Of a stretch of 20,867 bases of DNA, positions 4,376-20,403 are shown one piece after another. The position numbers and the translations under genes were made by a program. Position 1 is the first letter of the stretch. Each line of letters starts with the position of its first letter. The DNA comes from a virus, in IMG/VR virus record IMGVR_UViG_3300030380_001093, positions 1 through 20,867 of that record, one strand, 5' to 3'. A model generated the notes under the pieces. That model made no database searches, had not been told where the DNA came from, and was given only the letters and a program-made list of their open reading frames with translations.

Positions 4376-4419
4376 GATTTACCTCTTTTTTATGGAAATA
4401 GCAGTGAAGATTAAAAGTC

Positions 4420-4430
4420 GCAACGCACAA
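4420..4430 (-). promoter_or_regulatory. Candidate phage late promoter motif, copy 3
   Basis: The third exact copy of TTGTGCGTTGC on the coding strand, four bases after the stop of the gp16-like gene and 44 bases before the fibre adapter gene. It shares with copy 2 a GATAT six bases upstream of the TTTGTGCGTTGC core. T7 has its phi17 promoter in the same place, ahead of the tail fibre gene. Confidence 0.5.
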
Positions 4431-4434
4431 AAAG

Positions 4435-7400
4435 TTAATATCTGCCGTATCCAGATATTGTATCTTTGCTTTCATAATCAAAAGCACCTTGAAATGAGTT
4501 AATTATATATCTCATAAACCAAAGCCTCATGCCTGGAATCATTTTAGCTGTTTGTTCAACAGCACCTTTTTCACCATTTATTAAACCATTGAAAGCATTG
4601 TAATAATCTTGAGATACTGATGGACCAGCACCAGCAAATTGATTTACAGAATTAAAAAATCCCTGTTCTTCTGGAAATTTTGGTTTAACATATCCATCAA
4701 GATAATTTTCACCATTCATTGCCATTGATGAAGATATACTTGTGTAAAACATATCACTGTACAAAGCAGCCAAACCAGATTGATCAAAAGATCTAATTAG
4801 TTTGTCAGTAAATGACATGTTATCCCATGCTCTTTTAGATCCACTTGTTAAATTAGATTTAATCTCAAGCACTCCATATCCTAGTCCCATCATCCAAATT
4901 GCACCAAACAATGGAGATCTCATTTGTCCAGTAGTATATGCGGCTGTTGTTTTGTTTACGGCTGCTAGTGCAAATCCGTAAAACTGAAACGGCAAAGAAA
5001 GCAATCCAGTTTCCATCCTTGCATAACCTCGATACTTAGGGTCTTGCTTCATCCCAAATCTTTTAGCTACACGCATTGGAATTAATACAACACCATCCAT
5101 TATTCTTGGTCGGTCAGCTGGTGTCGCATTCATAATAGTATTTAATATCCCAGTAGACATAGCCCTCTGAAACTTTTCTTTAAGAACCTCATCTGTCCAG
5201 TTGTCTGTGTTTGCATAGATTAAACCAGCATCAGATTCTTCCCATGCTGTTCCTTTATTAGCTGCTAACTTTTTAGCATCAGCTTTAGATATATTATATC
5301 GCCTTAAATACTGAGACATCCAATCATCAGCATCACCAGCAGCTTCTTTAATAGCAAACTGAATTAATTGATCTTGCCTCATGATTGCGTCAAGGTGTTT
5401 TAGAAATCTAGTAACTGGTGTTAAACCATTAAGAATATAAAAAGCTTCTTTACCTTGCTCCCAAAGACCATGCATTTGTGGATTGGTAAGCATTTCATCA
5501 CTATACCTAATACCAGCACTGTGCATAGCACCTTCAATACCTTCACTTGCTTTTGGACCTTCAGCAGCAGCCAACCTAACTTTATCATCTGTGTACTTAG
5601 CAATCATAGTACGCATAACTCTATTAACGCCATGCTCTGCCATTAAGCGACCAAACTCAGTGAGTGTAGTAAAGCCAACAGCACCCATAAAATTAAATGT
5701 TGCTAAGTCTTTTAAGCGTCTAGTTACTTTTGCATCCCATCGAGCAGGGTTTCTTAATGGTGCATTCATAACTCTGTCATAGTCAGTTCTAAAATCAGCA
5801 AGCACAGCATTTATTCTATCCATATCCATGCCAGAATCAAAAAGCTGATCAGTTTTTTCCTCTAACAATTCATCAATATTTCTGCCGCCAAACTTTTTAG
5901 CAAATGAATAGCGTGGTGCTACTCTCTGATTGTAAGCCATAAATGCAGTGAAAGGATTCATTTCAATAAAATCAGTAATTAAATGATTAGGTATATCTAA
6001 TCGTCTGTGCATAAAATGTTTTGAAGCACCGTAACCAAAAAAAGCTTTTTCGAAATCATTATCTGCACCTTCAGATATAATCTTATCTACAGTTCGCTTA
6101 ACTCTTTCTGCTACCTTTGCTGGATCAGTGCTTAACTTTTGGACAGATAAAGGATTTCTAGGATCGAATACTTTTATGCTTGGGTTTTCTGTAAACCACT
6201 TCATTAGTATTTCTTCAAATTCTTTTCTTCTTTTTTTAATAACATCAACAAGAAAAAATCTAGGATGAAACACAGTTTCTTTAGCTGGTAAAACATCCAT
6301 ATCTTTTAAATCTTCTAATACATCTTGAGCTTGTTGACGTTCATCTTTGTATTTTGCTACACGAGCCATAACAGTTTCATAGTATGGATGATCACTTCTC
6401 ATACCATTACTTTTCAATGTTGCTATCTTTGCTTCATTATCTTCTATTCTTTTTGTAAAGAACTTCATTTGATTTCTATAAAATCTAGCACTACCAATAA
6501 GATCTGTTTCTGTTAGCCTTGCTCTCCAAGTTTCAGCAAACTCATCTATAAGGTTCATTACCTCTTCTTGCGCTTGTGTCTGAGGTTTACGACCACTTAA
6601 CCTTAATTTGCTTACCTCTCTTATAAATGTATTAAAATCTCTTTGCCTTCCAACAGCATAATCAAGAGCAACAACGACTGGTTTTTTACTTTCTTTTATA
6701 AAAGATTTTTGTAAATTTTTATAAAACTTATACATCTCAGCTTGATACTTAGCCTGATCCATATGAACGCTAATACCTAGCGTGTGACCATTAACATGAC
6801 CAACAGATAGTTGTCCTTGATCTCCAACTAAATCATAATAAAATCTTTTAAAATCTGTAGGTACATCTTTTGCACCCATTATTCTTTTGTATCCAGATGT
6901 AGCTGCCTTAAAAATAAAACTATTTGTAAAAACATTTTTAACTAAACTTGGGTCGCCTTGTGGCTCTACTGCTGGTGCAGTAGCAACTTCTCCATAGTTT
7001 GATATTGGTTGTGTTTTATCAAATGACTCATCAACAATAACAGGTACAGCATCTTCATCTACTATCTTTGGAGGAATAAGCGCATTCTCAGCTTCTTCAG
7101 TTTGATCAGCAATAGACTTTATTATTCTTCCAGAGTTGGGTGTAGTAGCAAAGCCAACAATACTTCCTATTGTATATCCAGCCAAACCAGACACACCAAT
7201 ATTAATTGCTGATTTTTTAAGATCTCTTTGAACAGGATCAACAGCTGATAAGACAGCTTCTTCAGCAGCAGTAAGCATCATAGTTGCTTTACCTACCTGA
7301 TAACCAGCGCGAACAGCACCAACACCGATACCGACTGGCAAAGCAACAAGATTAATAGGATCAAATAAAGAAACAAAAGCAAGCTGACCAATGCTTGCCC

Positions 7401-7734
7401 TAGATAATATTTCCTGATCTTTTTTAGATCTATCAATTTTTTCTATTAAAAAATCTAAATGTTTTTTATTTTGTGCATAAATTAAATTCATACTGTATTC
7501 ATGGTAAGATGGATCTAAATCAAATATTGATTGAGCCACATCAAAATCAGGATCGTAGTCATAAAGATCGCTAGCGTAATTACTAAAAGGACTGCTAAGA
7601 TCAAAAAGATTTCTAAACTTACCTAGTGATGCTCCCATAGCTTCATCAAGAGATGGCCTATTATCATATATGTCAGGTAAATCTCTGCCACCCATTATGT
7701 TTGGGTAGACGTTTGAAACGTCAATCATAGCCAT
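4435..7734 (-). CDS. Large internal virion protein (T7 gp16-like), no transglycosylase domain seen
   Basis: A 1099-residue protein in the gp16 position. T7 gp16 (1318 residues) begins with a lytic transglycosylase domain; here the first 110 residues are acidic and Asp/Tyr-rich and show no such motif. Hydrophobic, membrane-compatible segments lie at about residues 113-143 and 176-197, and another near 915-955 (FYGFALAAV and FGAIWMMGLGYG). The middle is helical and charged. This fits a channel-forming ejection protein that spans the inner membrane. Cell-wall cleavage would have to come from another virion protein. The start is coupled to the gp15-like stop. Candidate promoter copy 3 lies four bases after the stop codon. 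Confidence 0.85.
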   Translation of the reverse strand: MAMIDVSNVYPNIMGGRDLPDIYDNRPSLDEAMGASLGKFRNLFDLSSPFSNYASDLYDYDPDFDVAQSIFDLDPSYHEYSMNLIYAQNKKHLDFLIEKIDRSKKDQEILSRASIGQLAFVSLFDPINLVALPVGIGVGAVRAGYQVGKATMMLTAAEEAVLSAVDPVQRDLKKSAINIGVSGLAGYTIGSIVGFATTPNSGRIIKSIADQTEEAENALIPPKIVDEDAVPVIVDESFDKTQPISNYGEVATAPAVEPQGDPSLVKNVFTNSFIFKAATSGYKRIMGAKDVPTDFKRFYYDLVGDQGQLSVGHVNGHTLGISVHMDQAKYQAEMYKFYKNLQKSFIKESKKPVVVALDYAVGRQRDFNTFIREVSKLRLSGRKPQTQAQEEVMNLIDEFAETWRARLTETDLIGSARFYRNQMKFFTKRIEDNEAKIATLKSNGMRSDHPYYETVMARVAKYKDERQQAQDVLEDLKDMDVLPAKETVFHPRFFLVDVIKKRRKEFEEILMKWFTENPSIKVFDPRNPLSVQKLSTDPAKVAERVKRTVDKIISEGADNDFEKAFFGYGASKHFMHRRLDIPNHLITDFIEMNPFTAFMAYNQRVAPRYSFAKKFGGRNIDELLEEKTDQLFDSGMDMDRINAVLADFRTDYDRVMNAPLRNPARWDAKVTRRLKDLATFNFMGAVGFTTLTEFGRLMAEHGVNRVMRTMIAKYTDDKVRLAAAEGPKASEGIEGAMHSAGIRYSDEMLTNPQMHGLWEQGKEAFYILNGLTPVTRFLKHLDAIMRQDQLIQFAIKEAAGDADDWMSQYLRRYNISKADAKKLAANKGTAWEESDAGLIYANTDNWTDEVLKEKFQRAMSTGILNTIMNATPADRPRIMDGVVLIPMRVAKRFGMKQDPKYRGYARMETGLLSLPFQFYGFALAAVNKTTAAYTTGQMRSPLFGAIWMMGLGYGVLEIKSNLTSGSKRAWDNMSFTDKLIRSFDQSGLAALYSDMFYTSISSSMAMNGENYLDGYVKPKFPEEQGFFNSVNQFAGAGPSVSQDYYNAFNGLINGEKGAVEQTAKMIPGMRLWFMRYIINSFQGAFDYESKDTISGYGRY

Positions 7735-10700
7735 TAGAAAAACTTTCCTTCTTTTAATCCTGTCATAGCCTCATTAATTATTTCAAAGTTTTTTCTTTGC
7801 TCTCTTAGCTCTTCTATACTTTTTGCATTAATTTTTTGATTGGTAAGATCAGGATCTACATAGTCTTTAGCTTCATCAGATATTTTAAAACCCATTGGTC
7901 TTCCATCTATTATAAGTGGAGTGAGTTCGCTCAAACCATTTCTATCCTGAATAATTTCCATAACCTGAAAAACTTGATCCGCTGGTCTTGCAATGTTTGG
8001 AAACATAGGAACAAGAACAGCTGCTTTTAAATTTTGACCTTGGGTTCGTTTTCCTCTGGTAAATTTAATACCTTGTTCTTGATCAGAGGTTTGTTCTACC
8101 CCTCCTAAATATATAGCAGCATAATTATCAGTCATAGCAAGATCGTTTAAATCACCAATAATATTATCTTCTTGCCAGTTATCATCATGCACATTTGTAA
8201 GGGTATAGCCAACTTCAACTAGCTGATTATTAATTTGATCTGTTACATATTCTGTTAAATTAGGATCACCAAATATAACACCTAATGAGTGTCTTGATAA
8301 TCCTTTTTGACCAATAGGTCTTGCTGGATCAATAATATACTTTGCTTCTTTATATCTGTCTTCAAATCCTTTCTCAACCATTTGAATAATTGTATCTTGC
8401 TCAAACATTTTAGATGCCAGTTGATTTGCTAATATACCAAGTTCAGAATTAGAAACAATATCACCTTTACCCTCTAAAATTATATCAACAAATTCAGCTG
8501 GAGTAACAGACTGACCATCTGAATTTCTAAACAAAGCATCTCTATGTCTTGTGACTTCAGCTTCTGTTGCATTAGTGCCGCTTAAATTTAAGGTAGCGAT
8601 TGCATCATCAAAACTTTTATACAAACCTAAAGTATTGCCAAGCAGTGCAGCATCTATTGTCATTTGAGTAATGTCTTTAACCTGACCCTTTAATAAATTT
8701 CTTTTAACAACTTCTTTTGTTGTTTGATTTGTTTGTTTAAACCCTCTTAATCTACTATAAAGTTTCATAAGCTGATCTAAGTTTTGAACAGTTCCACCCC
8801 TAGCTATATTGTCATATTGATTTGCAAGAGTTGAGCCTATTGAGTTTTTCATTATAAAAAATGCTTGGTTTGTCCAAGTGCTTTCATCTTGAATGTTAAA
8901 ACCTATACCAGACAACTGTTGATCAGCAATATCCATAGCTGTTTTGCTGCTATTATCTAACTGACCTCTATTAAAAGCTTGATGCTTATAAGCATTTTCA
9001 TATGCTTTTCTTTGTCGTTCTTCTTGTCCAGCTCTTACACTAGCAATTTGTTGAATCTCTGAAGCAACAGCATTTCTTTCTGCATCACTAAATCCTTGGA
9101 CTGCAAAGTCAGCAAACTCTTTTTCATCATCAGTTAATCCTGTTAAGACAGACTCAGAAAGATCAACTCTATTTCCTACATATTGAGAGAGTAACTGTAA
9201 TCTTTCAGAGTTTAATGATTGAGAAAAAATTTGCAGTCTATTTTTTGCTCTTGATAAATCAAGGTTTCTTTTAAACTGTAGCTTTTGATCATTACTTAGA
9301 TCACTTGCATCTATTTCTTTTTTAACTGCATCGATATCCTTATCAAGAACATCATCGCCATTTAATATACTACCATTAAGTTTAAAGTATTTATCTGTTA
9401 TTTCTGCTCGAGCAAGATTATTCTCCATTCTTGTTTTAGTTTCAGATTCACCAGCACTGAAAAAAGCAGATAAAGTAGCTAAATCGGCAGTTTGAAATAA
9501 GCCATGTTTATGTGCAGCCTTTACTACTTTTCTTTGGTTTGTTGAAAGCTGATCATCTATTCTGTTATTTAACATAGCTGATTTAAAGTTATCGCTTTTG
9601 CCATCATATGATGCAAGTCCAATAAAAGGCTCTAATAGACTTGTTCTATGTGCTATGAGTGCGGCATTATACTCAGGATTGCTCATAAAATTTTCGTCAT
9701 CTTTCCTCTTACGATCTAACTCTTGTTTGTATTGCCTATGTATTTCACCTAAAGATTGTATTGCTCCAGCAATATCTCCACCTTCTAAGAATGCTTCTGT
9801 AGCTTTTTGTGCTGCTTTATTTGCATTTCGTAACGCTGCTGTATTTAAATCTCTTTTATCTATTCTTAGATTTCTTAAATCTTCTTTTTCTTGATTAGCT
9901 TCAGCAACAGCTTTATTAGCTCTCCTGATTGCATCAACACCATCCATGTCAGCAATCACAGAAGTAACAGCAGCACTTACAGATTTCTTATTATCAACAG
10001 TAATTAATTGTGCCAAAGATGTTGTGACTACTTTTCCATCTGGCATTGTGTATACTATTTTTTTATTAAATAATTGTTTGATGTCTTCATCAGCATCTTC
10101 ATACTTGCCGCTAGTGCTTATCATTGTAGCTATTTGCTGTCTTTCATCCTCATCAAAAGTACCTTTTGATATAATTCCTATTAAAGATGCAGCTGCAATA
10201 TCACCTGTTGTACCTGAGTAATAAGAATCACCAGCACCAGTTGTAAGCAACTGAGCTTCCTCTCCATCAACATTTACTTGCTTCCTATCTTCTGCAGCAC
10301 TTAAAGCTTTGCCAAGATTTCCATTTAAAGCTAATTCATATATATGAGCAGCAACTTCAACATTGCCAGCAATAATACCATCAGCTTGATTTGCTCTTGC
10401 TCTTTCTCTCTGTTTCTCAAGCAAGTCATAGTAATGACCCTCTTGTATAGCAGTTCCAACATTAGTTATTAGTTCTTGAAATCGACCATCAGCATTAGTA
10501 CCAAGGGCTTTAAGGTAACTATCCATAGCATTTTTAAAAGCTATTGGATTTCTGCTATGCTGAACTCTATACTTTTGAGCTTCTAACCTAATGTCCTGAT
10601 CTATTGTATCTGCAAATCTTTTTTCAGCTACTCTTCGAAAAGCTTCTCTAGCAATACTGCCATAGCCCTCTGGTGGCTTCATTGCGACTGGCATTCCATC

Positions 10701-10916
10701 TTCGCCAAACTTCATAAACTCTGATGAATCAATAGCCATAACAGCTTCTTCAGCTGTTACTTCAGCTTTCTTTGTATCTACTTCAAAAGCTTTTCTTCTA
10801 AGAGTTTCACCAGCATCAGCTAAAGCAAGGCCTACTCGATCAGCCTCAACATCAAAGTTATTAACACCAATACGTTTGTTTGTTTCAGTTACTGTTCTTC
10901 GGATTACTTTTGCCAT
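7734..10916 (-). CDS. Large internal virion protein (T7 gp15-like)
   Basis: A 1060-residue, mostly helical, charged protein with no membrane segments that I can see. The first 50 residues (FDVEADRVGLALADAGETLR, then coiled-coil-like helix) resemble starts of gp15-type ejection proteins. T7 gp15 is 747 residues, so this version is much longer. By analogy it sits in the core stack above the portal and is ejected with the DNA to help form the trans-envelope tube. An AGGA six bases before the ATG serves as RBS. Its TAA overlaps the following ATG (TAATG). I searched by eye for transglycosylase or peptidase motifs and found none. Confidence 0.85.
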   Translation of the reverse strand: MAKVIRRTVTETNKRIGVNNFDVEADRVGLALADAGETLRRKAFEVDTKKAEVTAEEAVMAIDSSEFMKFGEDGMPVAMKPPEGYGSIAREAFRRVAEKRFADTIDQDIRLEAQKYRVQHSRNPIAFKNAMDSYLKALGTNADGRFQELITNVGTAIQEGHYYDLLEKQRERARANQADGIIAGNVEVAAHIYELALNGNLGKALSAAEDRKQVNVDGEEAQLLTTGAGDSYYSGTTGDIAAASLIGIISKGTFDEDERQQIATMISTSGKYEDADEDIKQLFNKKIVYTMPDGKVVTTSLAQLITVDNKKSVSAAVTSVIADMDGVDAIRRANKAVAEANQEKEDLRNLRIDKRDLNTAALRNANKAAQKATEAFLEGGDIAGAIQSLGEIHRQYKQELDRKRKDDENFMSNPEYNAALIAHRTSLLEPFIGLASYDGKSDNFKSAMLNNRIDDQLSTNQRKVVKAAHKHGLFQTADLATLSAFFSAGESETKTRMENNLARAEITDKYFKLNGSILNGDDVLDKDIDAVKKEIDASDLSNDQKLQFKRNLDLSRAKNRLQIFSQSLNSERLQLLSQYVGNRVDLSESVLTGLTDDEKEFADFAVQGFSDAERNAVASEIQQIASVRAGQEERQRKAYENAYKHQAFNRGQLDNSSKTAMDIADQQLSGIGFNIQDESTWTNQAFFIMKNSIGSTLANQYDNIARGGTVQNLDQLMKLYSRLRGFKQTNQTTKEVVKRNLLKGQVKDITQMTIDAALLGNTLGLYKSFDDAIATLNLSGTNATEAEVTRHRDALFRNSDGQSVTPAEFVDIILEGKGDIVSNSELGILANQLASKMFEQDTIIQMVEKGFEDRYKEAKYIIDPARPIGQKGLSRHSLGVIFGDPNLTEYVTDQINNQLVEVGYTLTNVHDDNWQEDNIIGDLNDLAMTDNYAAIYLGGVEQTSDQEQGIKFTRGKRTQGQNLKAAVLVPMFPNIARPADQVFQVMEIIQDRNGLSELTPLIIDGRPMGFKISDEAKDYVDPDLTNQKINAKSIEELREQRKNFEIINEAMTGLKEGKFF

Positions 10917-10924
10917 ATTTTATC

Positions 10925-11359
10925 CTAAGTAAAAGTTGTACTTAAATCATGTAGACCAGAAGCAAAACTTGATAGTGTATTTATTCTAGTAGCAGATGCT
11001 CTGTTCTTACCGCGTTCTATTTCAAGCAATGATGCCACTGTTTGTTTTCTACTTTCCATATCTGCTTGCCTTGCCATTACAGTCAGGTCATCAAATGCCA
11101 CTTCTTCTTGATTGTCCATAAATGCCTTAACACTTTGATCAAAGTCTCTGTTCTTTAATAAAGCACCTTCATTATATGCAAGATCATCAAAGTATTGCTG
11201 ATATCGCATAACTTGTTGCTGTGCTGCTTGTGCCTCACCAACAATCCGATCTGTTACCATTGCTTCAGCATTATCTTTTGATGCTTGCTCTTGCGCTCTG
11301 GCAGCTTGCATACCGCCCATGAATTTTAAACCTAAACCTATAACTTGAAAAACAGACAT
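10925..11359 (-). CDS. Internal virion protein (T7 gp14-like)
   Basis: A 144-residue Ala/Gln-rich protein. A short hydrophobic/glycine N-terminus (VIGLGLKFMGGM) leads into a long helix with many Gln, Ala and Glu. T7 gp14 (196 residues) has similar helical, Ala/Gln-rich composition and is the first ejection protein placed in the outer membrane. Identification rests on position after gp12 and before two giant ejection proteins, on size and on composition; there is no catalytic motif. The start is coupled to the gp12 stop by TAATG. Confidence 0.8.
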   Translation of the reverse strand: MSVFQVIGLGLKFMGGMQAARAQEQASKDNAEAMVTDRIVGEAQAAQQQVMRYQQYFDDLAYNEGALLKNRDFDQSVKAFMDNQEEVAFDDLTVMARQADMESRKQTVASLLEIERGKNRASATRINTLSSFASGLHDLSTTFT

Positions 11360-13602
11360 TAGAATATTAACTCCGCTACCAAACCATTGATCTGTAAATC
11401 TAATGGTGCATTTTGTGTTATTGTTATTTGAGGATCTGCATTATAACCAAGTAATCTAAACTCTTTTTTGCCAGTAAAAGGAGCTAGTTGTTGTGACAAA
11501 TCATCTGTAACATTTCTTATTATCATTGCTGTTTCATTTACCTTTACAGCTAATGTGTTATTCAAGTCTAGATATACTGTGCCAAGCCCTCTTGGAATAC
11601 CAGTTATTGGTCCATTGTTTACCTGTGCATCTATTGGATTTGTTGTTAACTCAACATCAAAGTTAAATCCTATTTCAGCTGATGATAGTGAAGCATCAAC
11701 AGAAGATACGTTTATATTGCCACCACTAACAGTAAACTCTCCAATATAATTGTTACCATTAACAACTCTTAACACAGCACCATTATTAAAATCTGCTGAC
11801 ACATTAAATACACCACTAGATCCGCTATATGTTTTTGCCATATCTAAATTAAATGTAGAGTCAAATTCACAAAGAACTATTTTTTTTGTGCCATCACCAA
11901 GATCATATTCTACATTTACAAAGACACGATCATCTATTGTAACTGTAGAATGAAACTTACCATTTGTTACAAACTCTACCCAACCAGCACGTTGCTCTGC
12001 TCTATTAGAATTAAATACAGACATTGTTCCATCATTATTTACAATGAAGACATAGCTTTCTGATCTAGATAAAGCACCATAAAGAGTATTCATTTCTATT
12101 GGTGATTTAATAAGATGCGAAGAAATAGTAGAAATTGGATTAGCTACATATGCAGCTTCACTATCGCTAAACAAATATTCTCGAACAATTTGCCCACCCT
12201 TCTGAACAAAAAGAGTTGCACCATCTAAAATTTGAGGTCGTGTAAATCCAGAACCAAAAGGAGTTTGTCTTCTTACCTGTGCATTGGTTGGAGTAATAGG
12301 TTGATTCTGAAACGCTGGCACAAACATTTCAGCAGAAGCTGCAAAGATCTGCAGATCCCTGTTTGAAACAATATGTCGTATCTGTTGTATTTCACCAATA
12401 GCAGCAGTTAGTTGTATCGACTCATTGTCTTTAGCTTCACCAACATCAAAGTTATAATATGATGCTATCTTACTAAACCAAATACTATCTGGTTGCCCAA
12501 GAGTTCCAGCAAACACTAATCTGTTTTCATGAAATGTAACAGCAGCTGGAAACCCTCGAAGAGCAGAATATGACTGTTCTTCCCAGCTAGTTGTTGGTGC
12601 GTGAGTAGTTACACTTGGAGTACCACCACCCAAAGCAGAATCATTAGATGAACCACCAGCAGTAAAAGTAAATACATCATCACTAATAATACCAGCAACA
12701 GTTCTTGAGCCATTTAAATTGCTAATACTTATACCACCAACAGTATCACAATTTGAAAAGGTTATTGAGTTGCCCACAGACATACCGTGATTTACTAAAG
12801 TAACTTCTACTATATTTGATCCATTATTTGTTCTTAAAGAATCTGGACTTAGTTTTACTTTAAGAGAATCAAGTATGTCACCTGTTGCAACAGTTGAGCT
12901 TGTGACACCAGTAATCTCTATCTCTTGACCATTGTATCTAACAGTTGTGCCAATATGCTTAGAAGGAGATGTTGTATCCCAATAAGCTGCACTTGTTGTT
13001 AAAGTAACACCAGATCCACTTGATGCTGATGGATCTAAAGTTACTCCAGCACCTTGAAAAGAAAAGTATGGTTGATAAACTTGTTTGTTGTCAGACTTCT
13101 GATCGAACTGAAATCCTTCTATTTGAAAAGTAGTAAGACTTGTTCTTACAATTTGTTGAGGAGCAAATGTTTGATGTGCAATAAACATAACATCGCCAGC
13201 TTGTGCATATGTATATTCATGCAGAAACTCATCATCAAATTTTAATGCGGCACTATTAATATCTGATGTTATTGTTTGTATTAGAGATACAGCACCACTT
13301 ACTGGATTTATTTGAAAAACTCTTACTTTAGCTTCTTCTAAAGAAATAATGTATCTTTCATCATCAGAAAATATAAAAGGTAACAATCTGCATTGTTGTA
13401 CTTTTGTTTCATCTATAGTTGTGTCAAATTGATATATTTTTTGAAGACCAGATCTTTTAACAACTCCACCTTCAGATCTTATAAAAAAGTTTTTAACTCT
13501 TTGTGCAGATTGATTATAAACAGGAGAATCTGTTCTTGAATATAAAGAAGGACTTACTTCACCAAATGCAAAGTTTGTTAGTGGTACTCGTACTTTCTGC
13601 AT
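11359..13602 (-). CDS. Tail tube protein B (T7 gp12-like nozzle)
   Basis: A 747-residue protein, close to T7 gp12 (794), which forms the hexameric nozzle below gp11 and carries the fibres. The N-terminus has the family pattern: NFAFGEVSPSLYSRTDSPVY, then RVKNFFIRSEGGVVKRSG. The region ALRGFPAAVTFHENRLVFAGT, about residues 348-368, is also typical and is followed by DSIWFSKIASYYNF. It is beta-rich throughout, as a beta-propeller nozzle should be. Its TAA overlaps the gp14-like ATG (TAATG). Confidence 0.93.
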   Translation of the reverse strand: MQKVRVPLTNFAFGEVSPSLYSRTDSPVYNQSAQRVKNFFIRSEGGVVKRSGLQKIYQFDTTIDETKVQQCRLLPFIFSDDERYIISLEEAKVRVFQINPVSGAVSLIQTITSDINSAALKFDDEFLHEYTYAQAGDVMFIAHQTFAPQQIVRTSLTTFQIEGFQFDQKSDNKQVYQPYFSFQGAGVTLDPSASSGSGVTLTTSAAYWDTTSPSKHIGTTVRYNGQEIEITGVTSSTVATGDILDSLKVKLSPDSLRTNNGSNIVEVTLVNHGMSVGNSITFSNCDTVGGISISNLNGSRTVAGIISDDVFTFTAGGSSNDSALGGGTPSVTTHAPTTSWEEQSYSALRGFPAAVTFHENRLVFAGTLGQPDSIWFSKIASYYNFDVGEAKDNESIQLTAAIGEIQQIRHIVSNRDLQIFAASAEMFVPAFQNQPITPTNAQVRRQTPFGSGFTRPQILDGATLFVQKGGQIVREYLFSDSEAAYVANPISTISSHLIKSPIEMNTLYGALSRSESYVFIVNNDGTMSVFNSNRAEQRAGWVEFVTNGKFHSTVTIDDRVFVNVEYDLGDGTKKIVLCEFDSTFNLDMAKTYSGSSGVFNVSADFNNGAVLRVVNGNNYIGEFTVSGGNINVSSVDASLSSAEIGFNFDVELTTNPIDAQVNNGPITGIPRGLGTVYLDLNNTLAVKVNETAMIIRNVTDDLSQQLAPFTGKKEFRLLGYNADPQITITQNAPLDLQINGLVAELIF

Positions 13603-14195
13603 TACGTTCGCCTATTTGTAATAAACCGACTTGTTGAAAGTTTCCTTGTTGTTTGTTGTTGAGCATCTAAGTTTCTTGCTCTCATCATCGATGTTGCTGC
13701 TTGTTGAGACATAAGCTGTGCAAGGTTCTGATCTCTTGCTAAACTAACTGCAAATACAGATGCTAACTCATACTCAACAGCAATAGTAAAATATGAAGGC
13801 CATCCCTGTTCATTTGCTCTAAATGTAAAGTCTAATACTAACTCTGAACTAGCTGTCTCATTACAAAATAATTTATCACCATAAGTTTGATATTCTATAG
13901 GTGTGTCATTAACAGTTACAACATGTGTCATTAACCAATCACTTGGAAGCTGATAAGCAGCATCAAATCTACCAGTTGGAGCATCTGTTAATCTATTTAA
14001 TATTGATTGATTGGTTGCAAATCTCCATCGAGTATTTAGCAAAGATGATCGAGCAACATCTTCATACATGTTCGAAGCAATCAAAGCTTCATTATTACCA
14101 TCATCAAATGATGTAATAGGTTCAGCACCCACAAGAATTAGAGCGCGACTACATACAGCTACTGGAGATTGTGCTGGTATACTTGAAACTGCCAT
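13602..14195 (-). CDS. Tail tube protein A (T7 gp11-like)
   Basis: A 197-residue protein matching T7 gp11 (196 residues), the adapter ring that joins portal to nozzle. It shows the family's opening (AVCSRALILVGAEPITSFDD), followed by EALIASNMYEDVARSSLLNTRW, AYQLPSDWL, and a C-terminal helical region (FAVSLARDQNLAQLM) with a basic tail. The RBS GAGG is seven bases before the ATG and follows the terminator hairpin. The TAA overlaps the next gene's ATG as TAATG. Confidence 0.92.
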   Translation of the reverse strand: MAVSSIPAQSPVAVCSRALILVGAEPITSFDDGNNEALIASNMYEDVARSSLLNTRWRFATNQSILNRLTDAPTGRFDAAYQLPSDWLMTHVVTVNDTPIEYQTYGDKLFCNETASSELVLDFTFRANEQGWPSYFTIAVEYELASVFAVSLARDQNLAQLMSQQAATSMMRARNLDAQQQTTRKLSTSRFITNRRT

Positions 14196-14211
14196 ACTAA
14201 ATCCTCAAAGA

Positions 14212-14235
14212 AGGGTGGGGCCGAAGCCCCAACCT
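14212..14235 (-). terminator. GC-rich hairpin, likely terminator after capsid genes
   Basis: Coding-strand arms GGTTGGGGC and GCCCCACCC enclose a TTCG tetraloop. Five G-C pairs sit next to the loop, then T-A, one T-C mismatch, two G-C pairs and one A-T. It is followed by TTCTTTGA, a short imperfect U tract. It lies directly after the stop of the capsid companion gene and before tail tube A. T7 has its T-phi terminator in the matching place, between gene 10 and gene 11, where partial termination keeps capsid mRNA in excess. Confidence 0.75.
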
Positions 14236-14236
14236 A

Positions 14237-14500
14237 TTAGTCGCCATCGGTTTCAGCTACTGCCGTACCATCAGATACGTCAACAACAGTACCAGTATTT
14301 GAAAGAACAGTACAAAAACTTGTTGTTGGAACATTAGTATCGCGAACGATAATTAAGTCACGAACATCAAGCATGTTTGCTGCATCATTAAAATATCCAG
14401 CACTATTTACAGCGGCGATAGCATCAGCAGATGTATACATCCACAAGCTACCATTTGAATCACCACCGACACGAGTTAGTCCACTTGAAGCAAAAGCCAT
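14237..14500 (-). CDS. Small protein following the capsid gene (possible head decoration)
   Basis: An 87-residue acidic, beta-rich protein starting MAFASSGLTRVGGDSNGSLW and containing YTSADAIAAVNSAGYFNDAA and LDVRDLIIV. Similar small proteins are, from memory, often found directly after capsid genes in podophages and prophages, which makes a head-surface or capsid-companion role plausible. It has a strong RBS (GGAGG eight bases before ATG) formed just after the capsid stop, implying high expression together with capsid. It is in the same frame as the capsid gene, but two TAG stops separate them. A GC-rich hairpin begins just after its stop. Confidence 0.78.
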   Translation of the reverse strand: MAFASSGLTRVGGDSNGSLWMYTSADAIAAVNSAGYFNDAANMLDVRDLIIVRDTNVPTTSFCTVLSNTGTVVDVSDGTAVAETDGD

Positions 14501-14512
14501 TTTCTAACCCTC

Positions 14513-15322
14513 CTAGTTATTATCTAGCAGTTCGTACATACCATTGTCATCAATGACAACAGAACCCATTGACATCATTGATGTCGCTAGGTGCGATACT
14601 TTTTCTGCTACATAGTTTACTTCGGTCTGAACATCAGAGTTCACACCAATACCAACTGCTCTCATGTGATAAGCAAAGTTTTTACCACCAGCTACAGCTG
14701 AAGTTGAAAAGATCTTGAAGCCCAAGAACTCTTTCATTGTCATACCGCCAGCAAACGGTAAGTTTTGTGGTCCAACAAAATCACTTGAAGCAAACTCATT
14801 AATATTAAAGAGGTCTGCAAAACCAGCTGGAGACATAGCAATATAGCGTTGTCCATCTTCTGGAATGCTTGCTGTACCAAATGTTTCAAAGGTTGACAAA
14901 AGATCTGCTTTTTCAACAGCAGAAGATGTGTCGTGAAGCTGAGTTGAATTAGCACCAGCATCCATAGCTGTTGTAATGATCTCATCAGTTTTACGACCCA
15001 ACGCAGCAGCAGCACTTTCAGCAATAGCTTGACGCTCGTTGATATTAGTTTTCAACTCATCAAGTTTATCAATGTACTCAGCTGCATAGAAGTCAGCCAT
15101 TGTTACTTCCACATTAGTGTGTGCAAGTTCCATTGGTGTAACATTACCGTTACGCGATTTTGTTGAAGCTGATCCAGTTCCTATTTTCTGGAATCGAGCC
15201 ACATTGCCTGACACATTCGTAGAACGAATGGTATTACGCAGTTTTGAACCCATGCGCTGGTATGCAAGATGCACATCGGTTTCGAACTGCTTAATAAAGG
15301 CTTGGTCTATTGTATTAGCCAA
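14513..15322 (-). CDS. Major capsid protein
   Basis: A 269-residue shell protein identified by position after scaffold and by sequence. It has an N-terminal helix ending in LRNTIRS, the FQKIGTGSASTKSRNG loop (an E-loop candidate), a long central helix NERQAIAESAAAALGRKTDEII, and a C-terminal stretch ending VVIDDNGMYELLDNN. It is shorter than T7 gp10A (345) but within range for HK97-fold capsids of marine podophages. The start is TTG, not ATG, seven bases after a good AGGAG; the first residues MANTIDQAFI suit a capsid N-terminus. A 78-base untranslated stretch precedes it. I see no slippery site for a T7-type 10A/10B frameshift. Confidence 0.92.
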   Translation of the reverse strand: MANTIDQAFIKQFETDVHLAYQRMGSKLRNTIRSTNVSGNVARFQKIGTGSASTKSRNGNVTPMELAHTNVEVTMADFYAAEYIDKLDELKTNINERQAIAESAAAALGRKTDEIITTAMDAGANSTQLHDTSSAVEKADLLSTFETFGTASIPEDGQRYIAMSPAGFADLFNINEFASSDFVGPQNLPFAGGMTMKEFLGFKIFSTSAVAGGKNFAYHMRAVGIGVNSDVQTEVNYVAEKVSHLATSMMSMGSVVIDDNGMYELLDNN

Positions 15323-15400
15323 TTTCTTTCTCCTAAATTAAGTTACGGGCATCTTGGGTATCTGCTTTACATCCTCAATGAAGGTATCCAAATGGGCTTC

Positions 15401-15940
15401 TCAGTGTATCACAGGCCTTGATATTTTATGTGAAACACAATTTTGTGACGGATTGCAACGCACAAAATCAACATATCGCACATTTTTCCAATCGCTAAAC
15501 CCAACAGGATGAAAGCCTAACCATACTGCCCAGTTCAACATTGACTCATATTCTTCTGCTATTTGCATAGATAAATCTTCATATGACTGATCTAAGAATG
15601 ATATTAATAACTTAGATCCTCGTGCCAATCCTTTGAAGTTTTTTGTTACATGTTTTGTAAACAATGCAAAGAGTTGTGGTGGATCTTCAGAGAAGAACAC
15701 ACCACTTGCCATCATAATATTCCAGTCTTTATCTCTTACAATATAGACTTCAGAATCTTTTTGCAGATCTTGCAAAGCTTCAAGAGAGTTAGAATAACCA
15801 AGATTAGAAAGCTCTCTTTCTGTTTCTGGATGCAGTATAGAATATATTTCTCTTATGTGATGTTCATAAAAGGGGGTCATATAATACGACCCACTTTGTA
15901 ATATCTTTACTTCATCCATAAAGTTTTTTGAAACCTTCAT
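15401..15940 (-). CDS. T7 Gp13-like / GNAT-fold-like protein
   Basis: Up to 179 residues. The order of elements (YIVRDKDWNIMMASGVFF, then FKGLARGSKLLISFLDQ, then MLNWAVWLGFHPVG and YVDFVRC) resembles the acetyltransferase-like fold of the T7 Gp13 family, including the helix leading into a WLGF strand. T7 gp13 (138 residues) is needed to load internal virion proteins, but its gene lies after the tail-tube genes; here it sits between scaffold and capsid. I see no clear acetyl-CoA loop, so activity is doubtful. Two starts are possible: ATG at 15940 or ATG at 15919. The latter overlaps the scaffold stop by eight bases, and neither has a strong RBS. The last 20 or so codons contain candidate promoter copy 2. 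Confidence 0.7.
   Translation of the reverse strand: MKVSKNFMDEVKILQSGSYYMTPFYEHHIREIYSILHPETERELSNLGYSNSLEALQDLQKDSEVYIVRDKDWNIMMASGVFFSEDPPQLFALFTKHVTKNFKGLARGSKLLISFLDQSYEDLSMQIAEEYESMLNWAVWLGFHPVGFSDWKNVRYVDFVRCNPSQNCVSHKISRPVIH
15455..15465 (-). promoter_or_regulatory. Candidate phage late promoter motif, copy 2
   Basis: An exact copy of TTGTGCGTTGC on the coding strand, inside the end of the Gp13-like gene and 132 bases before the capsid start. Six bases upstream of the shared TTTGTGCGTTGC core it has GATAT, as copy 3 does. Downstream, CAAAATTGTGTTTC nearly matches the sequence after copy 1. The placement corresponds to the strong phi10 promoter of T7 ahead of the capsid gene. Confidence 0.5.
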
Positions 15941-16640
15941 CTACTTGCTTTACAAAGTTCATATCACGTTTTGCTGGTGACCAATAACGCTCATCTCTCA
16001 TCATTTCAGTTAACTCTACCTCATTAAAGTTTGATGATATGTTAGTTTGCTCTGTTACGCTTGGGTCTTTTATTGCTTCCATAATTGCTTCAAGAGCAAC
16101 AATACCATCTGCACTTTCGCACATACGTTCTATTGCTGGCAAAGCTTCTTCTGGAAAAAATTTATTAGCAAAGAGGGATGCAGCTTCTATTCTAGCATCA
16201 GAGTTATCACCCAATCGTGCAGCTTCAGCTTCTATATCATTATCATCACCCATTCCATTCATATACATTTCAATACCTTTTTGAAATTCTTCATGGGTAT
16301 ATCCATTAGAATGACAGTGATCTGCCCAGTCTTTTAGCATATCACTTTCTAAAGCTTCTTCTTCATCAATAAAATCAGGGAGTTCATACTCACCAGCAGA
16401 TGCTGGTACACCTTCAGATGCCTGTTCATTTAGTTCATCCATAAGTCTAGATCGAACATCATCTTCTTTTTCACCAAGCTTTGATTCTAAAGCTTTGTAT
16501 GCTTTACCTAAATCAGCTGGATCATTAAACTTTTCTGGCAACCATTCTGGTCTTTCAGATGTTTCAGAAGTTACACTATCAACAGTTTTTACTTCTTCAG
16601 TTGTTTCTTCTGTAGTTTCAGTTACTTGATTTTCTTCCAT
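15912..16640 (-). CDS. Capsid assembly scaffolding protein
   Basis: A 242-residue highly acidic, helical protein in the T7 gp9 position between portal and capsid. The N-terminus is Glu/Thr-rich and disordered, followed by RPEWLPEKFNDPADLGKAYK and KLGEKEDD, a signature seen in many T7-like scaffolds. The C-terminal 30 residues are basic and helical (VKQVDEGFKKLYG), as expected for the capsid-binding end. It would direct prohead assembly and leave before packaging. The RBS is AAGGTG before the ATG. The gene overlaps both neighbours. Confidence 0.9.
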   Translation of the reverse strand: MEENQVTETTEETTEEVKTVDSVTSETSERPEWLPEKFNDPADLGKAYKALESKLGEKEDDVRSRLMDELNEQASEGVPASAGEYELPDFIDEEEALESDMLKDWADHCHSNGYTHEEFQKGIEMYMNGMGDDNDIEAEAARLGDNSDARIEAASLFANKFFPEEALPAIERMCESADGIVALEAIMEAIKDPSVTEQTNISSNFNEVELTEMMRDERYWSPAKRDMNFVKQVDEGFKKLYG

Positions 16641-16896
16641 TGTTTTTCACCTTATGTGCATGTGTCATACGAGCTTCGATCAAACCAACTAAATATCGTT
16701 GACCTTCTATATGACGCAGTTCCTCCGTAGTTACATTTGGGCCATTTACCATTTCAATAGTAATTGATCTTAGATACTGCAAGACTGCTTGTCCTGTCGC
16801 AGAGCCAAACAATGAGGCTATATTCTCGCTAATCTGTTGATCTTTTTCTTGTGGACGCTGTATCCCATCAACACCCACATTGATTTTTTTAGTCAA
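16618..16896 (-). CDS. Bbp19-like small phage protein
   Basis: A 92-residue protein. The middle (residues about 28-78) carries LFGSATGQAVLQYLRS, then LRHIEGQRYLVGLIEARM. This is the pattern I associate with the Bbp19-like family of small proteins found near portal and scaffold genes in podophages; their function is unknown. The start is TTG at 16896, six bases after a GGAG formed by the end of the portal gene. An ATG four bases earlier reads into a stop within four codons, which supports the TTG. The 3' end overlaps the scaffold gene by 23 bases. The C-terminus is basic. Confidence 0.75.
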   Translation of the reverse strand: MTKKINVGVDGIQRPQEKDQQISENIASLFGSATGQAVLQYLRSITIEMVNGPNVTTEELRHIEGQRYLVGLIEARMTHAHKVKNNGRKSSN

Positions 16897-16899
16897 GCA

Positions 16900-18435
16900 T
16901 TACTCCATAGGTTGTGGTGCTTGCGCCTGACCTTGCTGCATTTGTTGCATTAATGCAAGAATTTGTTCTCTTTCTTGCTCATCTCTTACTAAATTATCTG
17001 GTATTCCAAACTTCTTAGCTAGATATGCAGCTGTTTCTTCCGTATTAATTAATACATTAATAGCATCTGCACCAAATGCTCCATTAGCCAACTCAAGAAA
17101 ACGTGACACTGAAGTAATATCCTGATTGGCTTGCGCTTGCGCTAACGGTGACACAGATCTTATTTTTACTTCTCTGCCATTAATTGTGGGGACTTCTAGT
17201 CTGCCTTGCTTCTTTAGAATATGAACAACACGTTGTAATACTGGCTGAACTAATTCTACTTGCAATCTACCAAAAGCAGATCCAATACGTCTTGATAGAT
17301 CTGCCATACGTTCTGCAATCTCTGTTGCTGATGCTGGTGTTCGATTAGGATCTCCAAGCATATCATTGTATAAAGCACGTTTGATATTGTTACGCATATC
17401 ACCAAGAACAAGTTGTGCTACATCAAAGCTACCAGCAGCTTGTATTGGTTGTAATCCAGCTGATCCCATAGCCTTTGGAATTATTGTTCCAGGGACTAGG
17501 TTAATTGTGTCAGGGTTTATTACCCCATCATCTTCCATTTGATAAATGCCAGAGATAGCCATCTGTGCATTCTCAAGTATCATCTCAACTGTAAGGTTAG
17601 TAGTTTTAATTGCACTCAATGCGTTGAATAATGGACCTCGCCCATAAACCTCACCAGCGCATTTAGACCAACGAAAACAAATAAAAGGATTTGAGCCAAC
17701 TCCAGACATCTGCCTTTGCATCATAAGAGATTTTGTTGTTAAACATATTGCGTAGTATAGATATGCTTCTTCATTCTTTTTAGAATAATCTTTACATACT
17801 ATTTCTAAGACTGTTGTTGTTTGATCAGAGTTATCTATTAAGTTTTGTAGTTCTGAATTAAATGTTCCATTTGGATAGAGCATTGGTAACTGATCATATC
17901 TTATAAATTTTCTTTCTCTAAAAACATGATCAATGCGATCATCAGGCCCAGTGTCTAGTATGACATGAGGTAATGGTATTGCGGAAAAACGTATAGGATT
18001 GATAGCATCGCCTTCTTCGCATACTAAGACACCAGTACCAACTGCTAAGTCCATAAAAGATTCATGAACTTCTTGTGCAAAGTTTGAGTTCTGAAGTATT
18101 TCAAAAACATATTCAGTAACTTCTTCAAGCTCATTATTAACAGCTTCTCTTTGTTCTTTTGGTGTTTCAGACCCAGCAGTTAAATCTGCCCATCGAGCAA
18201 AGTTTGGAACAAGTCCAGACTGTAATCTTGAAGCAAACTCTTGAACTCCTACAACAGCAGTCTCATCAAAGATTTTATCATCTCTTCTTTGACCAGAAAC
18301 TTCATAGTAAAATGATTCGCGTTGCGGCAGCGCAAACTCATAACACTCTTCAAAAACATCAACAAAGTTTGTACGCTTTGCTTTTGCTCTCTCATATCTT
18401 TTGAGAAACTCTTTTGCTATAGGATCTGTTATCAT
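16900..18435 (-). CDS. Portal (head-to-tail connector) protein
   Basis: A 511-residue protein matching the T7 gp8 connector family in length (T7 gp8 is 536) and in its opening: an N-terminal helix with ERAKAKRTNF, then FEECYEFALPQ and the FASRLQSGL region typical of these portals. It would form the dodecameric ring through which DNA enters and leaves and on which the head assembles. The C-terminus is Gln-rich (LALMQQMQQGQAQAPQ), a normal portal feature. It lies between terminase and scaffold, as in T7. Its last codons supply the GGAG ribosome-binding site for the TTG start of the next gene. Confidence 0.93.
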   Translation of the reverse strand: MITDPIAKEFLKRYERAKAKRTNFVDVFEECYEFALPQRESFYYEVSGQRRDDKIFDETAVVGVQEFASRLQSGLVPNFARWADLTAGSETPKEQREAVNNELEEVTEYVFEILQNSNFAQEVHESFMDLAVGTGVLVCEEGDAINPIRFSAIPLPHVILDTGPDDRIDHVFRERKFIRYDQLPMLYPNGTFNSELQNLIDNSDQTTTVLEIVCKDYSKKNEEAYLYYAICLTTKSLMMQRQMSGVGSNPFICFRWSKCAGEVYGRGPLFNALSAIKTTNLTVEMILENAQMAISGIYQMEDDGVINPDTINLVPGTIIPKAMGSAGLQPIQAAGSFDVAQLVLGDMRNNIKRALYNDMLGDPNRTPASATEIAERMADLSRRIGSAFGRLQVELVQPVLQRVVHILKKQGRLEVPTINGREVKIRSVSPLAQAQANQDITSVSRFLELANGAFGADAINVLINTEETAAYLAKKFGIPDNLVRDEQEREQILALMQQMQQGQAQAPQPME

Positions 18436-18821
18436 TATAGAAACCTACTAAAATAACCTACGCCACCACCTGATGATGTAAGCAAACTACGTCTTCCTCT
18501 TCTTCCAGACCTTGCTGATCTACTTCTTCTTCTTGCTGCTTTACTAGCAAACAAACCACTAGTTCTTCCTGTTTGTTTAGAGGTTCCAGTATTGTTTAAC
18601 TCTCCAGCTTGCATATTAAGTTCTGCTTGTCTTGTTTCTTTTGCAGCATTAGCTTCTGCAGTTGCAGCAGCACTAGCAGCTGCTTCTCTTTCAGCTTCTA
18701 ATTGTTTTTGACGTTGAGCTTCTTGTTTTGCTAAAGCTTGTTCTTTTGCAGCCTCTGCTGTTTCTCTTGCTTTTTTCTGTTCCTCATCTATTCGAGGATC
18801 TCTTTTCTTTCTACCGCACAT
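18435..18821 (-). CDS. Arg/Ser-rich small protein between terminase and portal
   Basis: A 128-residue protein of unknown function. It opens with MCGRKKR. Residues about 15-75 are Ala/Glu/Gln/Lys-rich and predicted to form one long helix or coiled coil. Residues about 92-113 are protamine-like, dense in Arg and Ser, and the end is Gly/Ser-rich, closing with GYFSRFL. Small MC-starting proteins with similar endings are, from memory, common near portal genes in marine podophages. The RBS is GGAG, seven bases before the ATG. Its TAA overlaps the portal ATG as TAATG, so it is translationally coupled to portal. A minor head or DNA-contacting virion protein is possible but unproven. Confidence 0.75.
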   Translation of the reverse strand: MCGRKKRDPRIDEEQKKARETAEAAKEQALAKQEAQRQKQLEAEREAAASAAATAEANAAKETRQAELNMQAGELNNTGTSKQTGRTSGLFASKAARRRSRSARSGRRGRRSLLTSSGGGVGYFSRFL

Positions 18822-18868
18822 AGTAAATCTCCTTTATATTTCCCTCAAAGCAGAGAAAAACAATTTTG

Positions 18869-18879
18869 GCAACGCACAA
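18869..18879 (-). promoter_or_regulatory. Candidate phage late promoter motif, copy 1
   Basis: The coding-strand 11-mer TTGTGCGTTGC abuts the terminase stop and lies 47 bases before the start of the 128-residue gene that heads the portal block. Two exact copies occur at 15455-15465 and 4420-4430, also just before gene blocks. It is followed here by CAAAATTGTTTTTC, which nearly recurs downstream of copy 2. Promoter function is inferred from position and repetition; the motif does not match T7, SP6 or host sigma70 consensus sequences. Confidence 0.5.
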
Positions 18880-20403
18880 TTACATTCTTGCCCAAAGACC
18901 CTGTCTTTTTTGTTTAACAGGTTTTTTATTAAATACATCAAAGTTTCTACTTGCTATCACAGGTCTAGCTGGTTTTTGACTATTAAGTAAAGCTCTACCT
19001 TCACCAGCACCCAGCATCATGTATTGTAAGGCATCATGAATATGAGAGTACATATTCTTATCAGGTTTATCAGCATACCTTTCACCAGATACTTCCATAC
19101 GTTTATATTGATATCCACCTTCAAATCCTTTGATCAACTGCTGACACCTTCTATCAATAATAAATGCTGGTTTGCCCTCAACCATCTTAGTTAGCTGGGA
19201 AGAGACAGCTTCCAACCGAAGGTCTACAGAGTTCGAAGGGGCTGGGAATGCCCTCAAACCAGCACCGCGCAAGATGTGGAAAGGGGTACTTTCATCTGTC
19301 TGCGCTCTAAAATCCCCAGCGGGATCGCCGTATATATACACCTCAGATGCTTGAGAAAATCGGGAGGAAATTTCTTCACGCAATACTTCAGCAAACCTAA
19401 CAATCCCCATATCAAAGGCCACTATCTCCGACTGGACGAGCCAGCGACCCCTGATCTTTTGTCCAAGAGTTGCAGCTGGAGTCAACCCAAAGTCCAAGCC
19501 AACATATAGCGGTGCGCCAGCAGCTACCGCTATTTCTTCTTTGGCTATGTGTACTTCTGCAGCGAACATTGGGTATATCGGCTTTCCGTCTTGGATAGTG
19601 CCAAGCCTATTCATAACATAGACATCAATCCAGCTTTTTGTTTTACCTCTTATTAAATTGTCATAATAGTTAGCAAGCATATGTTTTTTGTTTTCAGCAG
19701 TATTGTTCGGCTTATAATCTACCACTTCACCATCTTCATCACGCTCTTCAAGCATTGCAGAAGGCTGTGTAAAGAACTGCCAGTTATCAGGTTTTACTAA
19801 CATCTTAGCTTGTTCTCTTGGGATATGATCAGGGATTGGAACTTCGCCAGACATAATAGGCCACCAGTGATCTTCTTCTGGCGCATTTGTATCTGCTATT
19901 ACACCTGTCCAGTTTGGACCACCATCACGCATAGAAGGGTAACGACCAACACGCATAGTGCAAGCATCAATAATAGACTTAGGAATTTCCCTTGCTTCAT
20001 TTATCCATATACCTGTTAATTCTAATGATAAAAGTTTTTTAACATCCTCTGGTCTATCTAATGCTAAGAAAAGAACCTCAAGTTCTACTTCACCCTTTTT
20101 AATGTTGTGGGTGTAGGGGACTGACCAAGTAAACTTTCCCCATTCATTTTCTGGGAACCAATCAAGCCATGTTTTAATAGTTGTAGTTCGTAGCTGTGGG
20201 TTTGTGTTTCGTATAATAGCCCATCTTGATTTTCGCTTTCCATCTGGGGCTTTCTTTTGTTCCAAAGCTCTACGAAATACTTCAACGCAACACCCTACCG
20301 ATTTGCCAGATCCTACTGGTCCTCGAATGCCACGAAAGAAAGTATTATCCTTCATAAAGCTTTTAAGGATCTCTCCGTCTGGCTTGTATTTAAAATTGAC
20401 CAC
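18880..20403 (-). CDS. terL: Terminase large subunit (DNA packaging ATPase/nuclease)
   Basis: A 507-residue motor that pumps DNA into the prohead and cuts the concatemer. The ATPase half has Walker A GPVGSGKS at residues 28-35 and a Walker B-like GIWINEARE at 131-139. The usual acidic pair there is Asn135-Glu136 rather than Asp-Glu. The RNase H-like nuclease half shows the three expected metal-binding acids: Asp304 in VGLDFG, Asp360 in YGDPAG, and Asp457 in SHIHDALQY. Length is normal for T7-like terminases (about 500-590). The start is GTG, overlapping the previous TAG, with an AGGGG eight bases upstream. The DNA for residues about 268-404 is clearly richer in G+C than the rest of the gene, suggesting mosaic ancestry. 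A candidate promoter motif begins just after the stop codon. Confidence 0.96.
   Translation of the reverse strand: MVNFKYKPDGEILKSFMKDNTFFRGIRGPVGSGKSVGCCVEVFRRALEQKKAPDGKRKSRWAIIRNTNPQLRTTTIKTWLDWFPENEWGKFTWSVPYTHNIKKGEVELEVLFLALDRPEDVKKLLSLELTGIWINEAREIPKSIIDACTMRVGRYPSMRDGGPNWTGVIADTNAPEEDHWWPIMSGEVPIPDHIPREQAKMLVKPDNWQFFTQPSAMLEERDEDGEVVDYKPNNTAENKKHMLANYYDNLIRGKTKSWIDVYVMNRLGTIQDGKPIYPMFAAEVHIAKEEIAVAAGAPLYVGLDFGLTPAATLGQKIRGRWLVQSEIVAFDMGIVRFAEVLREEISSRFSQASEVYIYGDPAGDFRAQTDESTPFHILRGAGLRAFPAPSNSVDLRLEAVSSQLTKMVEGKPAFIIDRRCQQLIKGFEGGYQYKRMEVSGERYADKPDKNMYSHIHDALQYMMLGAGEGRALLNSQKPARPVIASRNFDVFNKKPVKQKRQGLWARM
19190..19600. other. High-GC island inside the terminase gene
   Basis: Hand counting gives 182 G+C in the 360 bases 19201-19560 (about 51%). 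Lines either side range from 27% to 43% (18901-18960 27%, 19021-19080 33%, 19621-19680 30%, 19681-19740 35%). The island covers the first part of the nuclease domain, including Asp304 and Asp360. The reading frame is intact across both edges. It looks like a recombined segment from a higher-GC relative, though conserved-residue codon constraint could contribute. Confidence 0.6.

Follow-up and report, generated by a model that had tools for sequence, protein, structure and literature searches.

The virus record IMGVR_UViG_3300030380_001093 raises the question of how a podophage turns on its late genes, and of which RNA polymerase reads them. The stretch analyzed here, hereafter the window, comprises 20,867 bases of this 24,022-base record and carries podophage late genes on the - strand; podophages of this body plan without an RNA polymerase of their own are abundant in the sea. 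The 11-base sequence TTGTGCGTTGC occurs exactly three times in the window, on the coding (-) strand only, as stated in the original prediction, which had proposed it as a late promoter, and no further exact copy is present in the window or in the record. Matches with 2-3 mismatches in the window stand at chance level (43 vs. 51 expected). The comparison with relatives described below indicates that the conserved part of this sequence is very probably a promoter-like element, and leads us to favor, with moderate confidence, its being the main box of a late-gene promoter that is read by the host multisubunit RNA polymerase and requires a phage activator.

The three copies precede the portal block, the capsid gene and the fibre gene, as predicted. 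Copy 1 (18869..18879, -; site P) abuts the stop codon of terL, the gene for the terminase large subunit. Copy 2 (15455..15465, -; site C) departs from the predicted placement in or beside gaps, as it lies inside a gene, where it reads TT|GTG|CGT|TGC within the 22 final codons of open reading frame (ORF) 15401-15940 (179 aa), 133 bases ahead of the capsid start. Copy 3 (4420..4430, -; site F) is located between an internal virion protein gene of 1099 aa and the fibre gene, 4 bases past the stop of the former and 45 bases ahead of the start of the latter. Two similarities that had been pointed out around the copies are not conserved in relatives: the GATAT upstream of copies 2 and 3, which lies at a distance of seven bases rather than six, and CAAAATTGTnTTTC, which is indeed common to copies 1 and 2, at different offsets (1 vs. 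9 bases). The core conserved among relatives is W-TTGTGCGTTG, with A or T as the base 5′ of the motif in 74/75 sites and a variable 11th base (C, A or T). Because the sites of this pooled 75-site table were chosen by the 10-mer TTGTGCGTTG, its conservation there is inflated; the portal-based synteny counts and the codon counts given below are independent of that choice.

The 10-mer Is Kept at Syntenic Sites in One Orientation

We searched IMG/VR with the portal protein, without using the motif, and analyzed 80 loci; each collection scan in this study covers the best 80 loci only. The results show TTGTGCGTTG with at most one mismatch after terL (site P) in 63 of 65 loci, 54 of them exact, and ahead of the capsid gene (site C) in 57 of 58 loci, again with 54 exact, while the reverse complement, used as a control, was found in 0/65 and 0/58, respectively. 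These syntenic counts rule out a chance repeat and bear out the original view that the repetition was very unlikely by chance. Syntenic copies at site F were found in 12 relatives whose sequence covers the region, and a relative with a guanine-plus-cytosine (GC) content of 51% keeps both the P and the C site. The search of relatives with a position check, which had been called for, thus recovered syntenic sites in a single orientation: no record among 21 long relatives has exact sites on both strands, and 80 contigs (762 kb) bearing the helix-turn-helix (HTH) gene described below contain 34 exact sites on the late strand and 0 on the opposite strand.

The sites fall into five recurring syntenic classes, of which P, C and F are the positions of copies 1, 2 and 3, T falls in the gap that separates the early operon from the late one, and G lies at the small genes ahead of terL. 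The variants TTGTGCATTG or TTGTGCGTTT occur at some G and P sites. The window's record has a G site of degenerate appearance (TTGTGTGTTT; L004 about 7200 (-); G000 about 22,200), ahead of a small gene that has the small terminase gene on one side and the large terminase gene on the other. Relatives display TTGTGC[GA]TT[GT] at G, followed by a T-rich run and TGTAAG or TGTAGG, and site G may, as judged by its letters, be a variant promoter. Two exact TTGTGCGTTG copies, in the related genomes G009 and G006, fall within a tail-side gene on the late strand (L090:16712, L093:9407) and may mark a sixth site or be ordinary coding sequence.

Site C offers the cleanest test of selection, because the gene that holds it was picked by protein similarity. 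In 38 such genes, less than 90% identical to one another and sharing as little as about 24% protein identity with the window, the codons F159-N163 (FVRCN) are frozen (TTT in 38/38, GTG in 35/38, CGT in 38/38, TGC in 35/38 and AAT in 36/38), and GTT169, which is part of a downstream TGTTT box, is kept in 36/38. Over the whole gene, the same codon is used in only 54% of same-residue pairs. Against this baseline, the frozen codons argue for a signal in DNA or RNA and not in the protein alone, and coding constraint by itself is ruled out at site C, since synonymous positions are frozen as well.

A Second Box Lies at a Fixed Distance from the 10-mer

Each copy is followed by a box resembling an extended -10 element: TGCTTT at site P (18847..18852, -), 17 bases past the 10-mer, TGTTTC at site C (15432..15437, -), 18 bases past it and also within ORF 15401-15940, and TGCTAT at site F (4398..4403, -), at 17 bases. 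Classes P, C and F were chosen without use of TGnT, and in relatives this tetramer is found at exactly N17 after the 10-mer in 28/39 deduplicated P sites (shuffle mean 1.7) and 6/13 F sites (shuffle mean 0.5), and at N18 in 20/23 C sites (shuffle mean 0.6); class G was kept outside this test because it had been chosen partly by downstream sequence. If the -35 role falls to the second TTG of the 10-mer (TTG(C/A); 18872-18870 at site P), a spacer of 17 bp (P and F) or 18 bp (C) leads to the base after TGn, within the 16-18 bp that separate a TTGnnn -35 from the -10 in sigma70-type promoters. By its letters, this bipartite -35/TGn layout is of the multisubunit RNA polymerase type, with sigma-type spacing, unlike T7-type promoters. 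Restriction to one strand, syntenic sites, strong constraint at the level of DNA and the fixed spacing of a second box together lend good support to the designation as a late promoter.

An Early HTH Protein Is a Candidate Reader of the Element

A Cro/C1-type HTH protein of 59-86 aa is encoded in the early operon of every motif genome whose sequence spans that region (14/14). It was also found in 16/16 long records with the motif from a further set (E 2e-39 or better), which shares some members with the first and had mostly been found by way of the HTH protein. Its recognition segment, SL-HKWE--KR-PSGF, is almost invariant. An HTH_3 domain (PF01381, 2.5e-8, above cut-off) and the modelled fold, a clean HTH with a mean predicted local distance difference test score (pLDDT) of 85, place it in the XRE/Cro-C1 HTH family; the nearest folds to the model are HipB and C proteins, a generic match with E about 0.005. 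It also matches PHROG 4836, a CII-like regulator (1e-7), and is not assigned to the CII family, as its match to Pfam CII (PF05269) falls below the cut-off (E 0.03). Judging from this co-occurrence, we consider it an even call whether this protein is the reader of the element.

Directly after the HTH gene lies a gene for a protein of about 104-118 aa with four cysteines (Cys4; CxxC...CxxC), which is conserved across the motif clade (e.g., L091:2180-2509 (-) and L026:1772-2086 (-)), gave no significant Pfam or PHROG match and was not found in Pelagibacter phage EXVC031P Hodr. From its position, it is possibly a partner of the HTH protein.

Hodr is the closest known cultured relative (61% portal identity). 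In Hodr and its clade, the HTH is divergent and longer and its recognition helix is altered, and 795 kb of the clade contain 0 TTGTGCGTTG. When that clade was searched de novo for a counterpart motif, no clear winner emerged; the k-mer test among these searches pools a repeat with its reverse complement and is informative only in its same-orientation ranking. MEP301 has neither an HTH of this kind nor an exact motif; HTVC010P has no such HTH, yet carries one exact motif. Since the links of the HTH and Cys4 proteins with the motif are confined to one clade, they are suggestive rather than proof.

Some contigs of metagenome-assembled genomes (MAGs) touch on the same family. Two GenBank MAG contigs labelled Opitutae (L272, L276) are phage, with 48-51% GC, one bearing the motif and the other the HTH; this binning hints at a different host without proving it. 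A relative in a Novosphingobium MAG (L274, L277-L279; 52% portal identity, 58-62% GC) encodes an HTH of the same family, of 95-158 aa, and no TTGTGCGTTG was found in the scanned 21 kb of its late contigs. In the GenBank entry of Hodr (OQ414635.1), name and locus tags disagree, the tags reading EXVC032PBaldr.

Alternative Explanations

The original prediction had suggested recognition by a diverged single-subunit RNA polymerase of the phage. The sites do resemble T7 phi10 and phi17 in general position, and the core is long and invariant. However, PF00940, the single-subunit RNA polymerase family, was detected in 0/15 long relatives, including G009, while the T7 positive control scored 1e-109; nor did the scan of G009 early proteins reveal any such gene, and this genome is probably complete because its ends overlap by 127 bases (terminally redundant). 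The layout is, moreover, bipartite with spacings of both 17 and 18, whereas T7-type promoters are contiguous. These results do not support the suggestion, and we give it hardly any credence. Sigma region 4 was likewise absent from 14 relatives, with control genomes positive in 14/14. Polarivirus skadi has no RNA polymerase and uses that of its host; it has two predicted transcriptional regulators, like HTVC010P-type phages, and only generic sigma70 promoters were reported for it (PMC10504331). Dependence on the host RNA polymerase is also reported for HTVC010P-type isolates, which are distantly related and share the body plan (PMC10504331).

The same element might instead be used by host factors alone, i.e., sigma70, an alternative sigma factor (RpoH, for example) or an activator of the host, with no phage activator involved. 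The spacing is sigma-like, and neither a phage sigma factor nor a phage RNA polymerase was found. The -10 element of alphaproteobacterial RpoH is CYTAT, which the CTTAT of P sites resembles. Nevertheless, the 10-mer stays intact across relatives of 34 to 51% GC, probably with several hosts, is missing from the related Hodr clade, and includes a heptamer upstream of the -35 that is conserved beyond the need of a host -35, and we find this explanation unlikely. An element acting in the leader or intergenic RNA, after transcription, by processing, antitermination or translation control, would fit sites that lie between gene blocks, tens of bases ahead of start codons. Yet no Rfam family matched at gathering thresholds, no conserved fold was seen at P or F and only a weak one at C, and the distance to the next start varies from about 45 to 133 bases, which makes such an element improbable. 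Sites that are non-palindromic, few in number and strict in orientation could also mark a DNA signal other than a promoter, for packaging, replication or anti-restriction; their constant position ahead of gene blocks and the phased TGnT are unexpected for a packaging or methylation signal, and this explanation appears more doubtful still.

A Proposed Model for Late-Gene Activation through the Host RNA Polymerase

We therefore return to a host-read late promoter that depends on a phage activator, whose architecture would be W-TTGTGCG-TTG(m), 17 or 18 bases, and TGnT(T/A)(A/T). The second TTG would serve as the -35 element, and TTGTGCG, at about -42 to -36, as the site of an activator touching the -35; with TGn and a poor -10, the promoter would be weak by itself. 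According to this model, the host RNA polymerase would first read the early genes, which form an operon on the opposite strand, where a sigma70 promoter search gave weak matches only. An early phage protein would then bind the box and bring the host enzyme to the late promoters, of which there would be as many as five (T, G, P, C and F), so that the blocks for terminase, portal, capsid and fibre are turned on. The best candidate for this activator is the 59-86 aa HTH protein, perhaps acting with the Cys4 protein encoded next to it. We infer promoter activity, activator dependence, late timing and the identity of the activator from the features described above. In its most specific form, that a tiny XRE-type early protein, possibly with Cys4, redirects the host RNA polymerase by a new kind of -35 takeover at promoters of the class TTGTGCGTTG-N17/18-TGnTTA, the proposal is a tentative one.

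Several observations weigh against the model. The -10 is poor, usually with 3 mismatches to TATAAT, and does not qualify as a sigma70 -10; it also differs by site, with TGnTTA at P and C and TGnTA at F, and the TGnT fit is poor at site G. The 10-mer lacks palindromic symmetry, although dimeric binding is usual for XRE proteins. The co-occurrence of HTH and motif, confined as it is to one clade, may reflect shared descent. Finally, the window's own record is without an exact T site, and its early region, and hence any HTH gene, lies outside the record.

Systems in which a phage activator redirects the host RNA polymerase are known. T4 middle promoters combine a MotA box with an extended -10 and are used through sigma appropriation by AsiA and MotA; like the promoters proposed here, they are read by the host RNA polymerase, a phage-specific box replaces the -35 function, and the activator is a small early phage protein (PMC2988021). 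TGn, present here too, occurs in about half of them (PMC2988021). Their MotA box, rich in AT, has its centre at -30 and stands 12 bp away from a good TATAAT. The box described here lies instead at about -42 to -33 and overlaps the TTG of the -35, with a poor -10. Pfam and PHROG scans, which use sequence profiles only, named no match to MotA or AsiA among the G009 early proteins. The lambda CII promoters (pRE, pI, paQ) also depend on a small HTH activator, and the candidate here has a weak CII-like PHROG match. They have TTG-type repeats around -35 and a poor -10, and CII reads TTGC-N6-TTGC; in our element, by comparison, the starts of the two TTG are 7 bases apart, and its use would be for late virion genes, not lysogeny. 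The restriction-modification controller proteins C.AhdI and C.BclI, and lambda CI at PRM, are XRE-fold activators acting beside the -35 as well, but these C proteins and CI bind palindromic operators as dimers, while the box here is non-palindromic. T7 and SP6 class III late promoters share the placement ahead of capsid and fibre blocks; they are contiguous over 17-23 bp and read by a single-subunit RNA polymerase of the phage, in contrast to the two boxes found here and a polymerase that was not found. Box, geometry and candidate reader thus differ in defining features from the T4 MotA, lambda CII and C-protein systems. No description of the motif was found in the literature searched, and for the 10-mer only unrelated papers were among the ten matches listed of 23.

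The motif group is a large, widespread clade of uncultured marine phages, and the motif can be used to recognize late operons in its contigs by sequence. Exact motif coordinates, a co-occurring 80-aa regulator and predicted RNA starts make the proposed early-late switch testable in the laboratory and in metatranscriptomes.

Genes Around the Three Copies

All genes described here are on the - strand. Upstream of copy 1, terL (18880..20403) matches PHROG 2 (2.5e-21). The first gene after this copy encodes 128 aa (18435..18821) and is without a family match; the block continues with the portal, or head-tail connector, gene (16900..18435; PHROG 332, 1e-93) and a probable scaffold gene (15912-16640), which was assigned from gene order and matches a PHROG of unknown function. 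The 179-aa gene whose last codons hold copy 2 (15401..15940) has a weak match to the internal virion protein PHROG 308 (4e-4). The major capsid gene downstream of copy 2 (14513..15322) and the fibre-like gene downstream of copy 3 (3470..4375) match PHROG 3437 (3e-53) and PHROG 21412 (7e-8), respectively, and the window's further late genes encode tail tube A and B and internal virion proteins.

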